DNA of 64,000 nt, from positions 1-64,000 of the forward strand of contig NZ_BOMZ01000088.1 in the NCBI RefSeq assembly GCF_016862455.1, written 5' to 3'. The notes beneath the pieces are model-generated. The model did not search any database. It saw only the letters and a list, made by a program, of their open reading frames with translations, and had not been told where the DNA came from. The DNA comes from Actinoplanes utahensis (GTDB taxonomy: Bacteria > Actinomycetota > Actinomycetes > Mycobacteriales > Micromonosporaceae). Within the stretch, counting starts at the first letter, position 1, and every line of letters starts with the position of its first letter. The translations under genes were made by a program, and so were the position numbers. Shown in pieces: positions 21,520 to 30,103 of this stretch.

Positions 21520-22206
21520 CTACTCGTCGTCGTCCTCGGCCTCGTCGCCCTGCTCGCCGCCGGCCTGCGCGTGCCGGGCGGACGGGGCCGGGGCGGCCTC
21601 GAGGACCTCGGCGACCGGCTCCTCCTCGACGTACTCGTTCATCTGCGGCGCGTCCACCCACAGGGCACGCAGCTGGCTCTGCATGAACGCGGTGAGCCGG
21701 CCGCGGTACTCCCGGTCGAACTGCTCGAGGGCCTCGATCTGCTGCTGCAGCGACTCCCGCTTGGCGCCCAGGCTGCCGACCACGTCGTCGTAGCGCTGCT
21801 GGGCCTGCTGCCGCAGCTGCTCGGCGCCGGCCACCGCGTCCGCGTTGATCGTCTCGGCACGGGCGCGGGCGTCGGCGACGATCTTCTCGGCGGTACGGCG
21901 GGCGTCCTCACCGTGGGCCTGGGCGTCCCGGCCGATCTGCTCGGCGGCGGCGCGGGCCTCGGCCAGCACCCGGTCGGCCTCGCGGCGCACGTTGCCGGCG
22001 TGCGCCTGGGCGTCCCGGGCGATCTGCTCGGCGGCGGCCAGCGCGTCCGTACGGATCTTGTCCGCGTGGTGCTGGGCGCTCGCGACATGCTCCTCGGCGG
22101 TGCGCTGGGCCAGGGCAAGCACCTGAAGCGCCTGGTTGGGCAGGCCGGGGTTGGGAGCGATCACCGCATGCTCCGAGGTCTCGCCGTTCGTCCCGTTGAG
22201 CAGCAC
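21520..22206 (-). CDS. Long coiled-coil protein with 29-residue repeats
   Basis: A 228-residue protein, almost wholly helical and Ala/Glu/Arg/Gln-rich. Two adjacent 29-residue repeats begin AAAEQIARDAQAHAG and AAAEQIGRDAQAHGE, with a weaker third. The pattern fits a continuous coiled coil, as in actinobacterial DivIVA-associated or FilP/Scy-like cytoskeletal proteins. The tail is acidic (QGDEAEDDDE). There is no membrane helix or signal peptide. The GTG start at 22206 follows AAGGATCG. Its stop codon abuts the amidohydrolase stop with no spacer. A structural or scaffold role is inference. Confidence 0.72.
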   Translation of the reverse strand: MLLNGTNGETSEHAVIAPNPGLPNQALQVLALAQRTAEEHVASAQHHADKIRTDALAAAEQIARDAQAHAGNVRREADRVLAEARAAAEQIGRDAQAHGEDARRTAEKIVADARARAETINADAVAGAEQLRQQAQQRYDDVVGSLGAKRESLQQQIEALEQFDREYRGRLTAFMQSQLRALWVDAPQMNEYVEEEPVAEVLEAAPAPSARHAQAGGEQGDEAEDDDE

Positions 22207-22405
22207 TTCGACACGATCCTTACGTCAGGAGGGGTCCGGCGGGCCCGGGCACACCGCGGCGCCGGCCATGATCGGCGGATGCTACCAAGCAGAACGGGCT
22301 GGGGGCGAGGCTCGTCCGGGGCAGTTTTCCATGATCGCCGAGAACCCTCTTAAATCGCACATTAGGGTTATATTCTTCTCCCCCTCCGACACTCGAGGAC
22401 GAGCC

Positions 22406-23113
22406 ATGGGAAAACCCCGCACACTGGCTGCCGCCACCGCGCTGACCTGCCTTCTCACCGCTGTGGCCGGCCCGGCGCGGGCGGCGGCGGACCACGTGAT
22501 GGCGGTCTGGCCGATGGACGAGTCGCCCGGCGACACCTGGATGGCCGACGCCGGCGGGCGCGGTCACCACGGGCGGATCGGGCCGGAGGTCGGCACGGGT
22601 CTGACCGCCGGGCCCACGGTCGGGTACCGGTTCGACCGCCTGGAACCGGACACTCCGCCCACCCGGCCCGGCCATCTGGTCGTCGTCGCCGACCATCCGG
22701 ACCTCGACCCGGCGGAGCGGGACTTCGCCGTGACGGTCCGGCTCCGGACCAGCCGGAAGTTCGGCAACGTCATCCAGAAGGGCCAGGCCACCGTGCCCGG
22801 CGGGAGCTGGAAGGTGCAGCTGCCGAACGGGCGGGCCACCTGCACGTACCGCGGGTCCAGGGGGACGATCGAGCTGATCGCGCCGTACCGGATCAACGAC
22901 GGGGCCTGGCACGTGGTCCGCTGCGTGCGGCTGCGCGCGGGAGTGTTCCTCAGCATCGACGGGCGGCAGGCGGCGGCCCGGCTCGGCTGGACCGGGACGA
23001 TCGACAACGACTGGCCGGTGTCCATCGGCGGCAAACTGGACTGTGACCAGGTCAAGGTGGGTTGCGACTACTACGCCGGTGACCTGGACTGGATCACCGT
23101 CGAGGCGGTCTGA
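22406..23113 (+). CDS. Secreted LamG/concanavalin-like protein
   Basis: A 235-residue exported protein. A signal peptide covers about residues 1-26 (RTLAAATALTCLLTAVAG, then ARAAA). The mature part begins VMAVWPMDES and continues as a single jelly-roll of the LamG type (FAVTVRLRTSRKFGNVIQKG, DGAWHVVRCVR, LSIDGRQ). Two cysteines near the C terminus (LDCDQVKVGCDYY) probably pair. GAGG lies 8 bases before the ATG. Such domains usually bind carbohydrate, but no catalytic domain is attached. It sits just before the Cys-rich peptide cluster on the other strand, convergent with it. Confidence 0.8.
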   Translation: MGKPRTLAAATALTCLLTAVAGPARAAADHVMAVWPMDESPGDTWMADAGGRGHHGRIGPEVGTGLTAGPTVGYRFDRLEPDTPPTRPGHLVVVADHPDLDPAERDFAVTVRLRTSRKFGNVIQKGQATVPGGSWKVQLPNGRATCTYRGSRGTIELIAPYRINDGAWHVVRCVRLRAGVFLSIDGRQAAARLGWTGTIDNDWPVSIGGKLDCDQVKVGCDYYAGDLDWITVEAV

Positions 23114-23162
23114 GGTCGTCGGCGGGGACCCCTCGCGGCGCGCGGGGCCCCCGTCGCCGGGC

Positions 23163-23384
23163 TCAGCAGCAGCCCGAGTACTTCCGGAAGTAGCTGTAGC
23201 AGGAGGGCGCCTGCTCACCGACGTAGCAGGTCCGGCCCCACTGGTAGTAGTAGTAACAACGGCCGCCGGAGCAACCGTGCTTCACATAGGTGCAGTCGCC
23301 CGGGTAGGTACAGGCCGCGGCCTGGCGGCTCGGCACGAGCGCGCCGAGCAGCCGGTCGCCGGCCGCCTTGAGCAGGGTCGTCAT
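23163..23384 (-). CDS. Small Cys/Tyr-rich peptide precursor
   Basis: A 73-residue protein. A polar 24-residue leader (MTTLLKAAGDRLLGALVP, then SRQAAA) precedes a 49-residue core with eight cysteines at 25, 31, 38, 43, 53, 62, 72 and 73, ten tyrosines and a single Trp49. The leader ends AAA just before Cys25, a possible signal-peptidase cut site, although the leader lacks a typical hydrophobic core. I chose the ATG at 23384 because GGAGG lies 6 bases upstream; an in-frame ATG at 23399 is closer to the SARP gene but lacks that site. It is the last gene of a cluster with an ABC exporter, TlpA-like and MauE-like redox proteins and a signal peptidase, so it is probably the exported, disulfide-bonded product. 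I do not recognise the peptide family. Confidence 0.78.
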   Translation of the reverse strand: MTTLLKAAGDRLLGALVPSRQAAACTYPGDCTYVKHGCSGGRCYYYYQWGRTCYVGEQAPSCYSYFRKYSGCC

Positions 23385-23432
23385 GGTGGGCCTCCTCATC
23401 GCTTCGGTAACACCCGACGGTGCCGGACGGCG

Positions 23433-24164
23433 CTAACGCGCCGCTAACGGCATCTCCAGGCGGGCGGCCAGGGCCCGGAGTTGCCGGCCGGGTGCGGCGC
23501 CGAGCTCGGCGCCGAGCAGGCGGGACACCCGGTGGTACGTGGCGAGCGCGGCAGCGGTGTCCCGGCGCGCGATGTGACAGCGCATGATCATCTCCCAGGC
23601 GTACTCCCGGAACGGCTGCTCCAGCACCAGAGCGTGCATGTCGTCGAGCGCCACGTCGACGTCGCCCAGCTCCAGCCGGACCCCGGCGAGGTTCTCCCGG
23701 ACCCGGGCCCGCCGCTCGTCGAGGGTGGCCGCGGCCGCGGCCACCAGGCTGCTGCGCACGTCGGAGCAGGCGGGGCCGCGCCACAACCGCAGCGCCCGGT
23801 CCAGCACCGCCGCCCGGACGGCCGGGTCCGGCGCGCGGCTCCCCTCCCCTACCAGGCGCTCGAACTCGGCGAGGTCGGTGCTGACCAGGCCGTCGCAGAG
23901 CAGATAACCGGGCGGCGTGGTACGGATCGCCGGCTGCCCCAGCTCCCGCCGCAGCGCGCAGATGTGGCCCTGCAGCTTGGTGACGGCGGTCATCGGCGGC
24001 TCCTCACCCCACAGGCCGTCGATCAACCGGTCCACGCTGACCACCGTGCCCGCCCGCAGCGCGAGCATCGCCACCACGGTGCGGCGTCCCTGGCCGCCCA
24101 GCCGCACCTCCTGGCCGTTCGCGGTCAGCCGCAACGGGCCGAGCAGCGCCACCACGACGCTCAT
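23433..24164 (-). CDS. SARP/BTAD-family transcriptional activator
   Basis: A 243-residue regulator with an OmpR-like winged helix at the N terminus (LLGPLRLTANGQEVRLGG, RTVVAMLALRAGTVVSVDRLIDGLWG) and a bacterial transcriptional activator domain after about residue 95. This is the small-SARP type that commonly switches on natural-product clusters. The ATG at 24164 overlaps the ABC transporter stop by 4 bases. Its place between exporter and peptide gene suggests it drives this cluster. Confidence 0.9.
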   Translation of the reverse strand: MSVVVALLGPLRLTANGQEVRLGGQGRRTVVAMLALRAGTVVSVDRLIDGLWGEEPPMTAVTKLQGHICALRRELGQPAIRTTPPGYLLCDGLVSTDLAEFERLVGEGSRAPDPAVRAAVLDRALRLWRGPACSDVRSSLVAAAAATLDERRARVRENLAGVRLELGDVDVALDDMHALVLEQPFREYAWEMIMRCHIARRDTAAALATYHRVSRLLGAELGAAPGRQLRALAARLEMPLAAR

Positions 24165-25987
24165 GACGACACCGCCTCCTCGGCGAATCCGGCCGCCTGC
24201 AGCCGGAACAGCTCCGCGTACACCCCGCCGGCCGCCATCAGCGCGGCGTGATCGCCGCGTTCGGCGACCACGCCGTCGCGCAGCACCACGATGACGTCGG
24301 CGTCGCGGACCGTGTTGAGACGGTGCGAGATCAGCAGAGAGGTACGCCCGTCGCGCAACTCCGCCAGCCGGCGGTGGATCTCGTGCTCCGCGCGGACGTC
24401 GAGCCCCGACGACGGTTCGTCGAGGATGAGCAGGTCGGCGGAGGCGCGCAGGACCGCGCGGGCGAGCGCGAGCCGCTGCCACTGCCCGCCGGACAGCACC
24501 ACCCCCGGTGTGGGCCGGCGCTCGGCGTCCCGGGCGCCGTCGCTGAAGGTGCGGCTGAGCAACGTGTCGTACCCGTTCGGCAGGCCGGCCAGGGTCTCGC
24601 CGATACCGGCCCAGTCCGCGGCGCGCGCCACGGCCGGCCGGTCGTGACGCCCGTCGATGTCGCCGACCGCGATGTTGTCGGCCGCGGACAGCTCGTAGGT
24701 CATGAAGTCCTGGAAGGTGGCCCGGATCCGGCGGCGCAGCTCGGCCGGTTCGATGTCGGCGAGGTCGACGCCGTCCCAGGTGATCCGCCCCCGAGTCGGG
24801 GTGTAGAAGCCGCAGAGCAGCTTGACGATTGTCGACTTGCCGGCGCCGTTCGCGCCGACCAGCGCGACCGCCTGCCCCCGTTCGACGACCAGGTCCAGCC
24901 CGCGCAGCGCCCAGTCGTGGCCGGGCGCGTACCGGAACCAGACGCCGGAGAACTCGATCCGGCCGGTCAGCGCCGGCAACCCGGTGACCGGACGCGGCCG
25001 GGGACGGGCCGCCGCCGTCAGGTCGAGGTAGTGGCCGAAGGTGGTGATCAGCTCGCCCATCGTGGCCACGTCGAGGACCGCCGAGGTGAGCGCCGACTGC
25101 ACCGCGGCCAGCGCCGCGATCAGCACCACCAGATCGCCGGCGGTGCCGTACCCGGCGGCGATCCGGCCCGCGATCCAGGCCAGCGCCACCCCGCTGAGGA
25201 CGCTTGTCATCGCCGACAGCGCCAGGTCGACGCGCAGCGTCCGGACGTCCTGGGCGCGTTCCTCGGCCTGGCCCGCGTGGATCTCCCGGGCCATCCGGGT
25301 CCGCAGGTGCGTGGCCAGCCCGAACAGCCGGATCTCCTTGGCCGCCCGCGGGTCGAGCAGCAGCGCGGCATAGAACGCCTGCCGCCGCCAGAACGGGCTG
25401 GCCCGGACGATCATCTCGCCGTGCCGGCGGGCCAGCCGGATCTGCGCCCACAGCGTCGGGCACGCCGACAGCAGGACCAGGCCGGCCAGCCACGGCCCGG
25501 CCAGCCACAGGGTGTACCCGAAGCCGGCGAGCGTGATCACCGACGAGGAGAAGGTGAACAGCGACGACAGGATCTGGACCGGCGCGAACCCGCTGGCGTC
25601 CTGGGCGATGCGGAGCCGGTCGTGGAACGCGCTGTCCTCGATCTCCGCGAGCCCCTCGTACGCCGACACGGCGGTGAACAGCTCGACCTGGGTGCGCACC
25701 TTGACCCGGCGGGACAGCTCCTGATCGCAGTAGCGGCGCACGTGCGACAGCAGGGCGGTCAGCACACCGAGGACGACGAGTCCGGCCACGCCGGCGTTGC
25801 GCCGGGCCGGGTCGTGCCCGGCGATGCCGTCCAGCAGCAGCTTCGTCGACCAGGCCAGACCCACCGGGGTGGCCCCGCCGGCGAACGTCATCACCACCGA
25901 GAGCGCGAGGGTGCCGGGCGCGGCCCGGACCCCGAGCGCGACCGCCGCGCGGACGACCCGAAGGCCGCCGGTGGTCACGGGATCCAT
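24161..25987 (-). CDS. ABC exporter, fused membrane and ATPase domains
   Basis: A 608-residue half-transporter. Residues up to about 330 form the six-helix membrane domain, and the remainder is the nucleotide-binding domain with Walker A GANGAGKST, signature LSGGQWQRLALARA and Walker B LLILDEPSSGLD. It lacks the N-terminal C39 peptidase found in double-glycine peptide exporters. It probably moves the small peptide or a related substrate outward as a homodimer. The ATG at 25987 overlaps the upstream gene by 13 bases; a GTG at 25978 giving a GTGA overlap is equally possible. Confidence 0.9.
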   Translation of the reverse strand: MDPVTTGGLRVVRAAVALGVRAAPGTLALSVVMTFAGGATPVGLAWSTKLLLDGIAGHDPARRNAGVAGLVVLGVLTALLSHVRRYCDQELSRRVKVRTQVELFTAVSAYEGLAEIEDSAFHDRLRIAQDASGFAPVQILSSLFTFSSSVITLAGFGYTLWLAGPWLAGLVLLSACPTLWAQIRLARRHGEMIVRASPFWRRQAFYAALLLDPRAAKEIRLFGLATHLRTRMAREIHAGQAEERAQDVRTLRVDLALSAMTSVLSGVALAWIAGRIAAGYGTAGDLVVLIAALAAVQSALTSAVLDVATMGELITTFGHYLDLTAAARPRPRPVTGLPALTGRIEFSGVWFRYAPGHDWALRGLDLVVERGQAVALVGANGAGKSTIVKLLCGFYTPTRGRITWDGVDLADIEPAELRRRIRATFQDFMTYELSAADNIAVGDIDGRHDRPAVARAADWAGIGETLAGLPNGYDTLLSRTFSDGARDAERRPTPGVVLSGGQWQRLALARAVLRASADLLILDEPSSGLDVRAEHEIHRRLAELRDGRTSLLISHRLNTVRDADVIVVLRDGVVAERGDHAALMAAGGVYAELFRLQAAGFAEEAVSS

Positions 25988-26508
25988 CGCTCCATCACCT
26001 CGTGGATCGAGTTGCCCGAGCCCAGCAGGGTGCCGGTGCGGTCGTACAGCAGGAAGGTCGGGGTGCCGGTCACCGAGAACGTCGCCATCAGGCCGCCCGG
26101 CCCGTGCTCGGTCACCACCGCCCCGGACTTCTCCAAGGTCGGCGTCAGGTCGTCGGGCGCCGCGTCGTCGAGCACGGTCAGCACCGAGACGACCCGGATG
26201 CCGTGCCCGTCGATCTCGGCCTTGCGGTGGGCGAGCTGTTCGGCCTGGGTCGGGCAGTACCGGCATCCGGTGGCGAAGAAGGCGAGCAGCAACGGGACAT
26301 CCGTCACGCCGGCGCGGGTGAACGTTCCGGCGGCGTCGCTGAAGTCCGGCATGGCGGTGCCGTTCATCAGGCCGGGACGGGCCGACGGGGTGATCTCGTC
26401 GAGACGGGCCTCGGTGTCCCGCAACCGCCTGATGATCGCCGCGCTGAGCAGCAGGTCGATCAGGACGAAGACGGTCAGGGCGATGACGGCCGCGGTGAGC
26501 AGCAGCAT
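25975..26508 (-). CDS. TlpA/MauD-like thioredoxin-fold protein, membrane anchored
   Basis: A 177-residue protein with an N-terminal membrane helix at about 4-26 and an extracytoplasmic thioredoxin fold. The redox motif is FFATGCRYCPTQ with Cys82 and Cys85, and the cis-proline loop is GTPTF. It would oxidise, reduce or shuffle disulfides on the outer face of the membrane. It lies between the MauE-like gene and the exporter. In methylamine dehydrogenase systems MauE and MauD together are needed for a light chain rich in disulfides; here the Cys-rich peptide may be the client. Confidence 0.87.
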   Translation of the reverse strand: MLLLTAAVIALTVFVLIDLLLSAAIIRRLRDTEARLDEITPSARPGLMNGTAMPDFSDAAGTFTRAGVTDVPLLLAFFATGCRYCPTQAEQLAHRKAEIDGHGIRVVSVLTVLDDAAPDDLTPTLEKSGAVVTEHGPGGLMATFSVTGTPTFLLYDRTGTLLGSGNSIHEVMERWIP

Positions 26509-26533
26509 GAAGGGGACCTCTTCCGAAAGGGGC

Positions 26534-27109
26534 TCAGCGGGTGGGGCGTCCGAACAGCCAGACGATCTCGTCGAGGTAGACGACCGTCGCGACGACCAGG
26601 GCGGCGACGGCGACGGCCGCGACGGTGGCGGGTGCGGCGGTCCACGGGTCCGGCGCCGGGGCGGTCACGCCGACGGCGCCGCCGGCGAAGGCGAGCAGTG
26701 CCAGGAAGCCGGTCCGGACGACGTGGCGCACCGCGACGGTCTCGGTGGTGGCGCCGAAGCAGTGGCAGCCGGTCGCCGCGCCCCGGGTGACCGCCCGCGC
26801 CAGCACCACCGCGAAGACGGTGAACACCACACCGGCGGCGAGCAACCCGGCGGCGGCGGTGACCGGGACGGCGACGAGGCCCAGCGTGGCCGTCTCGCCG
26901 GCGATCGCGGCGACGGCCGTGATGCCGGCCGACCGGGCGGGGACGGCGCCGAGCTCGGCGACGCCGTCGCGGAAACGCCGGTACGCCTCGGCCGACCGGA
27001 GCTTCGACGCGACGGAGACGATCAGAACACTCGCGACGGTGAGTACGGCGACGGCGAGAACGAGCACGATGGAACCCCCGTTCCTGTTCGTTTTGCGTGG
27101 GGGTTTCAT
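26534..27109 (-). CDS. MauE/DoxX-like redox membrane protein
   Basis: A 191-residue membrane protein with four to five helices and the family motif TGCHCFG (Cys115, Cys117). MauE-like proteins are thought to carry electrons through the membrane to or from a MauD/TlpA-like partner. A consensus promoter lies about 30 bases upstream. The ATG at 27109 gives a basic N terminus (KPPRKTNRN); a GTG at 27067 with a G-rich site upstream would give a 177-residue form. It is the first gene of the five-gene minus-strand cluster. Confidence 0.85.
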   Translation of the reverse strand: MKPPRKTNRNGGSIVLVLAVAVLTVASVLIVSVASKLRSAEAYRRFRDGVAELGAVPARSAGITAVAAIAGETATLGLVAVPVTAAAGLLAAGVVFTVFAVVLARAVTRGAATGCHCFGATTETVAVRHVVRTGFLALLAFAGGAVGVTAPAPDPWTAAPATVAAVAVAALVVATVVYLDEIVWLFGRPTR

Positions 27110-27147
27110 CGAGCCGTGGAAACGTGGACCACCCCCGCGGTCAACGC

Positions 27148-27176
27148 AAAGTAAACCGGGCTGTTACAGATGTCAA
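27148..27176 (-). promoter_or_regulatory. Consensus promoter of the peptide cluster
   Basis: On the minus strand TTGACA (27176-27171) and TACTTT (27153-27148) are separated by exactly 17 bases, 39 bases ahead of the MauE-like start. A near -35 consensus like this is unusual in high-GC genomes and suggests a vegetative promoter for the cluster, possibly with the SARP acting elsewhere. Confidence 0.65.
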
Positions 27177-27184
27177 TACTTGAA

Positions 27185-27193
27185 TGTTAGCGC
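27185..27193. promoter_or_regulatory. Half operator GTTAGCGCT before the signal peptidase
   Basis: GTTAGCGCT matches the left part of the araD palindrome at 39304. A related GTTAACGCTAAC spans the peptidase stop codon at 27635-27646. Whether these bind the same regulator is unknown. Confidence 0.3.
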
Positions 27194-27216
27194 TCTCTAT
27201 TGCACGCTCGCGACTG

Positions 27217-27639
27217 ATGAAGCGCTATGCCTTTTACCTGATCGGCACCCTGGCCCCGGTTCTGCTCGGCGTGCTGGCGCTGCGCCGTGCGCTGCTCGTC
27301 GTCGAGGTCACCGGCGCCAGCATGGAGCCCACCCACCGCAGCGGCGACCGCCTGCTCGCCGTCCGTGGCGGCCGGCCGGGCCGCGGTGACGTGGTCCTGC
27401 TCCGGCACCCGGAGGCGGCCTCCCGACCCGCCGGGGCCAGCGAATATCTGGTCAAGCGGGTGGCCGCGATGCCGGGCGACCCGGTCCCGGACACCGTCGC
27501 GCCGGTCGCCGGGGCCGGCGTCGTGCCGCCCGGCTCCTGCGTGGTGCTCGGCGACAGCCCGGACAGTGTGGATTCCCGGACCTGGGGATTCGTGCCGTGC
27601 TCCGACGTAGCAGGCCGCGTGTTGCGTAGCCTTGGTTAA
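27217..27639 (+). CDS. Type I signal peptidase (S26 family)
   Basis: A 140-residue membrane-bound serine protease that removes signal or leader peptides outside the membrane. One N-terminal helix at about 6-22 is followed by box B GASMEPTHRSGD with catalytic Ser36, box D YLVKRVAAMPGD with general base Lys80, and box E VLGDSPDSVDSR. It is short for the family, so it is a minimal form. I start at the ATG at 27217, which gives MKRYAFYLIG; an upstream ATG at 27184 is possible. It diverges from the MauE-led cluster and likely matures its peptide. Confidence 0.88.
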   Translation: MKRYAFYLIGTLAPVLLGVLALRRALLVVEVTGASMEPTHRSGDRLLAVRGGRPGRGDVVLLRHPEAASRPAGASEYLVKRVAAMPGDPVPDTVAPVAGAGVVPPGSCVVLGDSPDSVDSRTWGFVPCSDVAGRVLRSLG

Positions 27640-27707
27640 CGCTAACTGAAGCGCGATTCACGACGGATACCGAAATAGAATGCGCGACGATATACGGAAT
27701 TGACCGT

Positions 27708-27728
27708 GCCGGGCCGCTTCAGCCCGGC
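27708..27728 (+). terminator. Hairpin between convergent signal peptidase and ZIP genes
   Basis: GCCGGGC and GCCCGGC form a 7-bp stem around CGCTTCA. It lies in the 176-base gap between the two convergent stops. Confidence 0.45.
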
Positions 27729-27815
27729 GGCCGCGGATCGGCTCGAACGGGCCGACTGCCTCGCGTGGACGGGCACGGGACCTTTCGTGGCCCGTACGAA
27801 ATCAGGCCCCGGCTC

Positions 27816-28559
27816 TCAGCCCGCGTGGGACAGGGCGAAGGAGAGCAGGAAACCCGCCACCGTGATCAGGCCGATCAGCAGGTGCGCGTCGTCGAACGCC
27901 TCCGGGATCATGGTGTCCGCGACCATGGTCAGGATGGCGCCGCCGGCCAGCGCGGTGATCCAGCCGAGCAGGACCGCCGGCGCGGAGGCGAGCACCGTGA
28001 AACCGGCGATCGAGGAGAGCGCGCTGATAGCGGCGATGCCGCCCCACAGGGTGAAGACGTAGGCGCGGCCGCGGCCGGCGGCACGCAGACCGGCCGCGCT
28101 GGAGAGACCCTCCGGGACATTGCTGACGAAGACGGCGACGACCGTGGCGACGCTGACGCCGCCACCGGCCAGCAGGCTGGTGCCGATGACGATCGATTCG
28201 GGGATGCCGTCGAGGAGGGCGCCGGTGGCCAAGGCCAGGCCGGAGCCGTCGTCGGAGCGGTCGTCGCCGCCGGAACGCTTGCGGTTGCGGGCGCCGCGGC
28301 GGGCCAGCAGGACGTTGCAGCCGGTATAGATCAGGGCGCCGGCGATCGCGCCGGACGCGGTCCACGACATGCCGGCCTGGTCGTAGGCCTCACCGACCAA
28401 CTCGAAGGCGACGGCGGAGAGCAGCACGCCGGCGCCGAACGCCATGATCGACGCGATGGCACGGCGCGGAATGCGGACGAAGAAGCCGACCGCGGCGCCC
28501 AGCAGCAGCGCGGAACCGGCGAGGAGTCCCCAGCCGCCCGCCTCCAACCAACCCGGCAT
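27816..28559 (-). CDS. ZIP-family metal transporter
   Basis: A 247-residue membrane protein with about eight helices. The paired metal-path motifs appear as ALLDGIPESIVIG and SNVPEGLSSAAGL, both typical of ZIP carriers; here the usual HN(x)PEG position reads VSNVPEG. A short charged loop (RNRKRSGGDDRSDDGSG) lies between helices 3 and 4. It would import zinc or another divalent ion. It is separated from the arabinose operon by a terminator and runs in the same direction. Confidence 0.88.
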   Translation of the reverse strand: MPGWLEAGGWGLLAGSALLLGAAVGFFVRIPRRAIASIMAFGAGVLLSAVAFELVGEAYDQAGMSWTASGAIAGALIYTGCNVLLARRGARNRKRSGGDDRSDDGSGLALATGALLDGIPESIVIGTSLLAGGGVSVATVVAVFVSNVPEGLSSAAGLRAAGRGRAYVFTLWGGIAAISALSSIAGFTVLASAPAVLLGWITALAGGAILTMVADTMIPEAFDDAHLLIGLITVAGFLLSFALSHAG

Positions 28560-28577
28560 ACGGCGGACAGTGCCCGG

Positions 28578-28611
28578 TCACCCCGCCCGGCACACCATCC
28601 GGGCGGGGTGA
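28578..28611 (-). terminator. Terminator of the arabinose operon
   Basis: TCACCCCGCCCGG and CCGGGCGGGGTGA form a perfect 13-bp stem around an 8-base loop, 11 bases past the araA stop. It separates araA from the ZIP gene. Confidence 0.75.
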
Positions 28612-28621
28612 TCCACGCGAC

Positions 28622-30103
28622 TCAGCGGAAGCCGCGGGCCAGGCGGTGGTACGCCTGGTTCCAGCGCACCTCCTTGGCGAACGAACGGGTCGTCGTCGCC
28701 TCGTCGATGACCAGCAGTTCGGTGCCGACCATCTCGGCCAGGTCGGCCAGTTCCTCGGCGCCCACCGCCGAGGACAGCACGGTGTGGTGCGGGCCGCCCG
28801 CGGTCAGCCAGCACTCGGCCGACGTGGACAGCGACGGGGCCGGCTTCCAGACCGCCCGGGCGACCGGCAGCTTCGGCAGCGGCGCGGTCGGCGGGACCAC
28901 CTCGATCTCGTTGGCGACCAGGCGGAACCGCTCGCCCAGGTCGGCCAGGCCGAGCACGACCGCCTTGCCCGGCCGGGCGTCGAAGACCAGGCGGACCGGG
29001 TCCTCCCGGCCGCCGATGCCGAGCGGGTGGATCTCCAGCTTCGGCTTCTCCGCCGCGATCGACGGGCACACCTCGAGCATGTGGGCGCCGAGGATGACCT
29101 CGTTGCCCGGGGTCAGGTCGTACGTGTAGTCCTCCATGAAGGACGTGCCGCCGCCCGGGGCCATCGCCTTGAGCGTGTGCACCAGCACCGAGGTCTTCCA
29201 GTCCCCCTCGCCGCCGAAGCCGTAGCCGTCGGCCATCAGCCGCTGCACCGCCAGGCCGGGCAGCTGGCGCAGCCCGCCGAGGTCCTCGAAGTTCGAGGTG
29301 AACGCGCGGAAGCCGCCCTCGGTGAGGAACTGCCGCAGGCCCAGCTCGATCCGGGCGCCGTAGCGCAGCGACTCGAGCCGCTCGCCGAGCAGCTCGGGCG
29401 CCACCTCGTAGGTGTCCCGGTACTCCTCGACCAGCTTGTCGATGTCCGCGTCCGACTGCTGGTCGACGACGGCGACCAGGTCGTTGACCCCGTACGTGTT
29501 GACCGAGACGCCGAACCGCAGCTGCGCCTCGACCTTGTCGCCCTCGGTGACCGCCACGTCCCGCATGTTGTCGCCGAAACGCGCCAGCTTGAGGTTGCGC
29601 ATCGCGGAGTAGCCGCGGGCCGCCTTCACCCAGGTGGCGATCCGGGCCACCACGGCCGGGTTGCTGACGTGCCCGGCCACGGTCTTGCGGGGCACGCCCA
29701 GCCGCGTCTCGATGAACCCGAACTCCCGGTCGCCGTGCGCGGCCTGGTTGAGGTTCATGAAGTCCATGTCGATCTCGCCCCAGGGCAGCTCGACGTTGTG
29801 CTGGGTGTGCAGGTGCAGCAGCGGGGCCCGCAGCGCGTCCAGGCCGGCGATCCACATCTTGGCCGGCGAGAACGTGTGCATCCAGGTGACGACGCCGAGC
29901 ACGCCCGGCGTCGACGAGGCCCGGCGGCAGATCTCCAGGATCTGCTCGGCGCTGGTCAGCACCGGCTGCCAGATCACGTCCGCGTCGAGCTGGGTGTCCA
30001 GCTGGATCGCGATCTCCCGGGACTGCGAGGCGACCTGCTCCAGGGTCTCCGGTCCGTAGAGTCCCTGACTGCCGGTCAGGAACCAGATTTCCCCGTTGCT
30101 CAT
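28622..30103 (-). CDS. araA: L-arabinose isomerase
   Basis: A 493-residue cytoplasmic isomerase converting L-arabinose to L-ribulose. It is collinear with the E. coli enzyme. Metal and catalytic residues are seen as E299 in [11 protein letters not shown]324 in SFMEDYTYD and H341 in GAHMLEV. The start [13 protein letters not shown] is the conserved N terminus. It is the last gene of a five-gene minus-strand operon after two permeases, with a 39-base gap and a terminator behind it. No ribulokinase (araB) is in the window; araD lies 9 kb away. Confidence 0.97.

Follow-up and report, generated by a model that had tools for sequence, protein, structure and literature searches.

Which product would a bacterium secrete with a dedicated redox pair, an exporter and a signal peptidase encoded around a single small gene? 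This question is raised by a 64,000-nucleotide stretch of Actinoplanes utahensis (contig NZ_BOMZ01000088.1; hereafter the window), in which five minus-strand genes and one divergent gene (23163-27639) encode a MauE-like membrane protein, a TlpA-like protein, an ATP-binding cassette (ABC) exporter, a SARP-type regulator, a cysteine- and tyrosine-rich peptide and an S26 signal peptidase. An initial annotation had proposed that the redox pair, the exporter and the S26 peptidase serve this one disulfide-rich peptide. By comparing the locus with other genomes, we found conserved gene sets and even cysteine numbers, as well as a variant in which the S26 peptidase and the A-x-A motif of the leader are both missing; all of these lend the proposal comparative support. 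We consider it rather likely that the cassette belongs to a large actinomycete class that makes a secreted disulfide-rich peptide through leader-guided ABC export, S26 cleavage and disulfide formation by TlpA and MauE.

The cassette and its candidate precursor

All six genes lie where the initial annotation had placed them, with the C-x-CFG of MauE, the C-x-x-C of the TlpA-like protein and the divergent orientation of the S26 gene as described. The precursor gene (23163-23384, minus strand, stop codon at 23163-23165) encodes 73 residues, for which the reported counts of eight cysteines and ten tyrosines are correct. According to alignments and to the leader profile used below, residues 1-24 (MTTLLKAAGDRLLGALVPSRQAAA; 23313..23384, minus strand) form a leader with A-x-A at its end. 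The predicted mature core, supported by alignment A1, by the ratio of non-synonymous to synonymous substitution rates (dN/dS) and by AlphaFold, covers residues 25-73 (23166..23312, minus strand), that is 49 residues with eight cysteines and a C-terminal GCC.

The other minus-strand genes encode the SARP-type regulator (23433..24164; Trans_reg_C and BTAD, Pfam BTAD E 4e-28), the MsbA-like exporter (24161..25978; ABC_tran E 3.7e-28 and MsbA-type matches), the TlpA/thioredoxin-like protein (25975..26508) and MauE (26534..27109; PF07291 E 1.2e-17), whose C-x-CFG reads CHCFG. The SARP and ABC genes, and likewise the ABC and TlpA genes, overlap by four bases. The TlpA-like protein has CRYC as its C-x-x-C and, by eye, an N-terminal hydrophobic segment; its family matches are weak (AhpC-TSA, E 3.7e-5, under the curated cut-off). 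The S26 peptidase (27184..27639, plus strand; PF10502 E 6.3e-22) has one N-terminal membrane helix, again by eye, and a Ser46/Lys91 dyad. In agreement with the description of the exporter as lacking a C39 peptidase, no C39 match was found in it in family scans (best 25 of 192 families).

The comparison indicates that the peptide open reading frame (ORF) is a real gene, because sequence searches recovered it in 6 of 60 genomes, its own included, and because dN (0.09) is lower than dS (0.33) against the nearest relative, with about 14 synonymous and about 14 non-synonymous differences (dN/dS about 0.27). In five further close peptide pairs dN was also lower than dS, with ratios of about 0.2 to 0.45. 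Seven of the eight core cysteines are invariant columns in the six-row alignment A1, the sixth cysteine being shifted. Of 354 genomes from the family of the window (Micromonosporaceae), 45 were matched in a profile search with the peptide, and in many cases the match was to the leader only. Neither the window peptide nor 17 precursors scanned had a significant Pfam or NCBIfam match. For the window precursor AlphaFold predicted four beta strands, with block means of the confidence score pLDDT (predicted local distance difference test) of 86-89 over residues 31-70 and values under 50 for residues 1-22, and no solved structure stood out when the core model was compared with known structures.

The gene set recurs around a subfamily of ABC exporters

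We searched 394 genomes of the class with a profile of the ABC subfamily (A5) that is independent of the peptide. As the best three to four exporter candidates and the best 14 to 16 peptide candidates per genome were scored, the resulting counts are lower bounds. We found at least 52 exporters of the subfamily in 29 of the 394 genomes (best three per genome scored). When each partner family was scored separately at these 52 loci (at least 35 bits, within 7 kb of the exporter), TlpA was present at 52, MauE at 49, S26 at 47 and SARP at 33; the regulator, counted as part of the set by the initial annotation, is thus frequent without being universal. At 46 of the 52 loci the leader profile detected a total of 54 peptides with four or more cysteines. 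All but one of these (53 of 54) lie no further than 4 kb from the exporter, and the profile detected none in three shuffled sets or in the window outside 22001-29000. Its training peptides came from 33 of these 52 loci, and the other 13 loci with a peptide are independent of it. Conserved cysteine-rich small ORFs therefore adjoin homologous MauE/TlpA/ABC sets in this co-occurrence search; their absence there had been named as one outcome that would speak against the proposal.

The catalytic residues of the partners are conserved as well: both cysteines of the TlpA C-x-x-C, like Ser46 and Lys91 of S26, are unchanged in all ten rows of the respective alignment, and the CxCFG of MauE in 9 of 9 (the nearest relative, L012, lying outside that alignment). 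Starting from the peptide, the first five relatives all carry the six genes, with a partial MauE in L012. Among 11 loci with full-length peptide relatives (L043-L053) the full set is present in ten, the exception being L051, and among nine loci that mainly have the leader in common (L054-L062; tblastn) we found the exporter and S26 in eight, MauE in six and TlpA in six. Relatives with the cassette include Micromonospora lupini and four other Micromonospora strains, Actinoplanes sandaracinus and Paractinoplanes rishiriensis.

The exporter occurs in at least 138 of 354 family genomes (best candidates per genome) and in 2 of 296 genomes of a phylum sample, the window genome being counted in both. 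The peptide class as a whole extends over Micromonosporaceae, Streptomycetaceae and a Nonomuraea (Streptosporangiaceae). Plasmid records with the exporter come from Streptomyces clavuligerus, S. atratus, S. nigrescens, other Streptomyces, Embleya and Nonomuraea gerenzanensis. We examined 10 of 30 exporter-bearing plasmid records, nine from actinomycetes and one outgroup; all nine actinomycete records contain MauE, TlpA (weak in one), the exporter and S26 together with one or more leader peptides, and in all five annotated ones the leader peptides are labelled ‘hypothetical protein’. No other cassette part was found near the lowest-identity exporter match, from the proteobacterium Phyllobacterium. 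The 9.4 Mb window genome itself holds at least two further exporters of the class (L170 on contig C90 and L137 on contig C112), with different cores of 8 and 6 cysteines. A further PF07291 match lies on its contig C18 (L093), where no cassette profile matched.

One leader precedes diverse cores with even cysteine numbers

Of 97 unique precursors, 88 have a leader that ends in P-x3-[AV]-x-A, preceded by GDRLL or ADRLL at roughly -16 to -12; the nine cores without this anchor were left out of the clustering. The 88 anchored cores, of 30 to 75 residues and with widely varying cysteine spacings, fell into 56 clusters at 45% identity. Over 1485 pairs of cluster representatives, the 12 leader positions outside the anchor (which fixes 3 of 15 residues) showed an identity of 0.34 versus 0.10 in shuffled sequences, and the cores an identity of 0.269 versus 0.247, which is near chance; since the precursors were chosen by the leader profile, this contrast is partly built in. 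Conservation of the leader and variability of the core are expected of a precursor of the bacteriocin type or like that of a ribosomally synthesized and post-translationally modified peptide (RiPP), as is a dedicated exporter clustered with a leader peptidase, represented here by the ABC subfamily, which has S26 no more than 7 kb away at 47 of the 52 loci. In some cassettes (L120, L121, L125, L155, L172 and L178) two or three precursors are encoded, and their cores differ.

Cysteine numbers were even (4, 6, 8 or 10) in all 56 cluster representatives and in 96 of the 97 unique cores, which were cut at the first A-x-A match and range from 4 to 10 cysteines. By comparison, the number was even in 160 of 242 (66%) further short ORFs of these loci that have four or more cysteines, and the probability of 56 out of 56 is then about 9e-11. 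The only odd core (9 Cys) is that of L051 (9858-10889), and its cluster has an even representative. By tblastn, no MauE, TlpA, close exporter or S26 was found in the 19.9 kb of this locus, and its SARP frame is interrupted; L051 is probably a decayed locus. Even cysteine numbers would fit a full pairing in disulfides.

In the L120/L157 group the cysteines follow the order C-C-CC-C-C in 9 of 9 rows of alignment A10, the order of inhibitor cystine knots. To our knowledge such knots are rare in bacteria. The predicted model of this group is weaker (66.5) and has no clear structural match. Cores with this order were seen at L120, L138, L145, L146, L147, L151 and L157.

The S26 peptidase and the A-x-A site are absent together in a variant

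Among the 52 exporter loci, an A-x-A leader peptide was found at 46 of the 47 with S26 and at none of the five without it (46/1/0/5; Fisher p 2.3e-6). Three of the S26-less loci, L167, L168 and L169, all of one genus, encode 8-Cys peptides whose leader has no A-x-A, together with MauE, a weakly matching TlpA and the exporter. This joint absence points the same way, namely to a putative S26 cleavage after A-x-A. The initial annotation had placed the cut after AAA and before Cys25. This fits the window peptide, and the rule is better stated as A-x-A, because a cysteine follows the motif in only 20 of 87 precursors (8 of 55 cluster representatives).

A proposed maturation route and its alternatives

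The comparison establishes the gene set, the leader, the even cysteine numbers and the conserved catalytic residues, from which we infer the biochemical steps and the activity. SARP would activate a MauE-TlpA-ABC-SARP-peptide operon. The 24-residue leader, unlike a normal Sec signal peptide, would address the precursor to the dedicated ABC exporter, and the S26 peptidase would cleave after A-x-A outside the membrane, as suggested by the variant without both. There, the C-x-x-C of TlpA may oxidise the core cysteines pairwise and MauE may re-oxidise TlpA in the manner of DsbA and DsbB. For the window this route predicts a product of 49 residues held together by four disulfides, with a calculated monoisotopic mass of 5673.24 (5681.31 in the reduced form). 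We also lean, with less assurance, towards a broader view, in which these peptides form a distinct ribosomal class whose sole modification is the set of multiple disulfides made by MauE and TlpA outside the cell after ABC export and S26 cleavage. One leader and one machine would then serve dozens of unrelated cysteine frameworks, some of them knottin-like, and amount to a natural bacterial display of disulfide-rich scaffolds.

Several observations weigh against this route. The link between S26 and A-x-A is weaker than its p value, since the three variant loci share one genus; moreover, the two other S26-less loci yielded no peptide, and the peptide search profile itself includes A-x-A, which inflates the p value. 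For this reason we lowered our confidence in the route very slightly. No MauE lies within 7 kb of the exporter at 3 of the 52 loci, one of which is the C112 copy (L137) in the window genome. In L012 (6239-6600) MauE is truncated before the CxCFG, whereas the peptide is intact and, like the exporter, TlpA, SARP and S26, can be matched over most of its length. MauE may thus be replaceable: its place in the set, as the initial annotation had it, holds at 49 loci, with a truncated copy in the nearest relative. A leader-type peptide was not found at 6 of the 52 loci, three of which have the variant peptide. The identities of exporters and leaders are correlated over all pairs (r 0.48), and co-variation sought in pairs below 60% exporter identity was not found (r 0.08, p 0.15). 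No constant immunity gene was recognised among neighbouring ORFs. The leaders are amphipathic on average (0.54 versus 0.29 shuffled; 46 leaders), but the moment of the window leader (0.28) is no higher than that of shuffled leaders. Finally, even cysteine numbers are also compatible with paired metal ligation.

We then weighed other explanations. If the peptide were an ordinary Sec-exported protein, or a lipoprotein with AAA-C as its lipobox, the ABC exporter and S26 would be bystanders. A-x-A is indeed the normal signal peptidase I site, and the window core begins with a cysteine, as do those of the 20 precursors mentioned above. However, the leaders reach an average maximum hydrophobicity of 1.11 (76 leaders), compared with 2.21 in the one Sec signal peptide of the window that was examined, and the median length of their longest stretch without charge is 7 residues. 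A lipoprotein has its cysteine directly after the cleavage site and an uncharged stretch before it, whereas a residue other than cysteine follows the site in 67 of 87 precursors and positions -4 and -6 often carry a charge; the window leader combines Cys at +1 with Arg at -5. As the exporter and S26 also recur with the peptide across many genera, we regard this explanation as very improbable, and we rejected it on leader hydrophobicity and cleavage-site residues. It is likewise very improbable that the product is a metal-binding peptide, similar to a metallothionein or a zinc ribbon, whose thiols MauE and TlpA would keep reduced. TlpA relatives are often reductants, and even cysteine numbers would suit paired metal ligands, but the predicted export with a signal-peptidase-type cut, the share of Tyr, Trp and Phe in the cores (16% of residues) and their mean charge of +1.8 argue otherwise, as do the varied cysteine spacings and the lack of family matches for the window peptide and the 17 precursors scanned.

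Since Mau genes serve the light chain of methylamine dehydrogenase, the cassette could instead make another cross-link (thioether, Cys-Tyr or quinone-type), for which the shared MauE and the ten tyrosines of the window core might be cited. Yet no oxygenase, radical-SAM, P450 or MauG-like gene is present among the six cassette genes, and none was recognised by eye in the 14 largest groups of neighbour ORFs from 80 loci, many of which are shadow frames. The even parity fits disulfides and the core sequence outside the cysteines is near chance, so that we give this explanation hardly any weight. The last alternative retains the maturation route and changes the purpose of its product, which would be a hormone, a developmental signal or a protease inhibitor. 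A SARP at 33 of 52 loci and the single exporter of many genomes listed are in its favour. However, the cores vary widely, the window genome has at least three exporters, each with its own peptide, and the tandem precursors and plasmid copies fit antagonism better. A signalling or inhibitor role is possible, though we think it unlikely. Because the cores vary while the leader and the machinery do not, the products of the proposed disulfide route are most likely diversifying antagonistic peptides, similar to bacteriocins or toxins.

Promoter and neighbouring genes

The initial annotation had placed the genes behind one consensus promoter. A promoter-like TTGACA-17-TACTTT is present upstream of MauE (27148..27176, minus strand, read from 27176 to 27148) and fits the pattern TTGACR-N16-18-TANNNT, a streptomycete-type consensus, which has 2 matches in the window versus 0.08 expected. 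Its -10 element is identical to TATAAT at only 3 of 6 positions, and a strict sigma-70 scan of 22900-27800 gave no promoter.

A gene for a Laminin-G-like protein with a signal peptide (22400-23113, plus strand) is convergent with the peptide gene; it was matched at the same place in L012, and not in the four other relatives of the first set. At 14 of 80 loci, nine of which are from Micromonosporaceae, the cassette adjoins a gene for an FtsX-type permease, for example at L052 (6909-9866), the locus at which this assignment was checked with Pfam. In several loci an ABC ATPase is found nearby. The permease was not found at the window locus. A role as self-protection pump is possible for this permease.

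Comparison with known systems

If the proposed route is correct, about two in five of the sampled family genomes (138 of 354) hold an exporter of a multi-disulfide peptide system, for which 56 core clusters are visible already, the 17 precursors scanned being without significant Pfam or NCBIfam match. It would constitute a bacterial route to knotted, protease-resistant peptides, give MauE a role beyond methylamine metabolism and provide antimicrobial candidates that mining based on C39 or on modifying enzymes may miss. The class can be recognised by its leader, A-x-A, even cysteine number and adjoining MauE, TlpA, ABC and S26 genes, which makes it directly testable.

MauD is the thioredoxin-like partner of MauE. 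The maturation of methylamine dehydrogenase resembles the cassette in using a MauE-family membrane protein with a proposed role in client disulfides (PMC7794033), but the cassette has no dehydrogenase subunits and its client would be a small exported peptide. No methylamine dehydrogenase structural genes were found among eight proteins scanned at the window locus, and we rejected this maturation for that reason. In the sublancin cassette, taken together here with those of the glycocins, BdbA and BdbB are used. Glycocin cassettes also combine a leader, a disulfide-rich core, dedicated thioredoxin-like proteins and an ABC exporter; there, the leader is removed by a C39 peptidase within the exporter, and the core is the substrate of a glycosyltransferase (PMC12457901). 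Neither was seen in the window cassette (no glycosyltransferase among its six genes in the family scan, no C39 match in its exporter), and the glycocin or C39 route was thus rejected. Actifensin and other defensin-like bacteriocins of Actinomyces are likewise actinobacterial and have a leader (32 residues), three disulfides, ABC genes and, in some strains, several precursors per operon (PMC6989792). Their loci differ by a subtilisin-like protease, a LuxR regulator and a GA-type cleavage motif, and the accessible portion of that source does not mention MauE, TlpA or S26 (PMC6989792).

The closest precedent had been overlooked by the initial annotation, which knew of no described system with this set. 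The decRiPPter study (Kloosterman et al. 2020) predicted three Streptomyces candidate RiPP families with mauE, one of them also with mauD, whose precursors have at least 8 Cys and whose clusters were selected for the presence of transporter, peptidase and regulator genes; its authors suggested a role of mauE and mauD in precursor modification (PMC7794033). A mauE gene next to a precursor of eight or more cysteines is also what the window shows (8 Cys), the class as a whole ranging from 4 to 10. As described there, the decRiPPter families are a prediction for Streptomyces only (PMC7794033), whereas we found a wider spread together with the leader, the parity rule and the S26 link. Streptomyces loci with the cassette set carry this leader type. 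In the open-licence literature we found no later or experimental description and no characterised member. The gene set thus represents a partly predicted, uncharacterised class, to which our analysis adds a unifying leader, the parity rule for cysteines, the link to S26 and its breadth.

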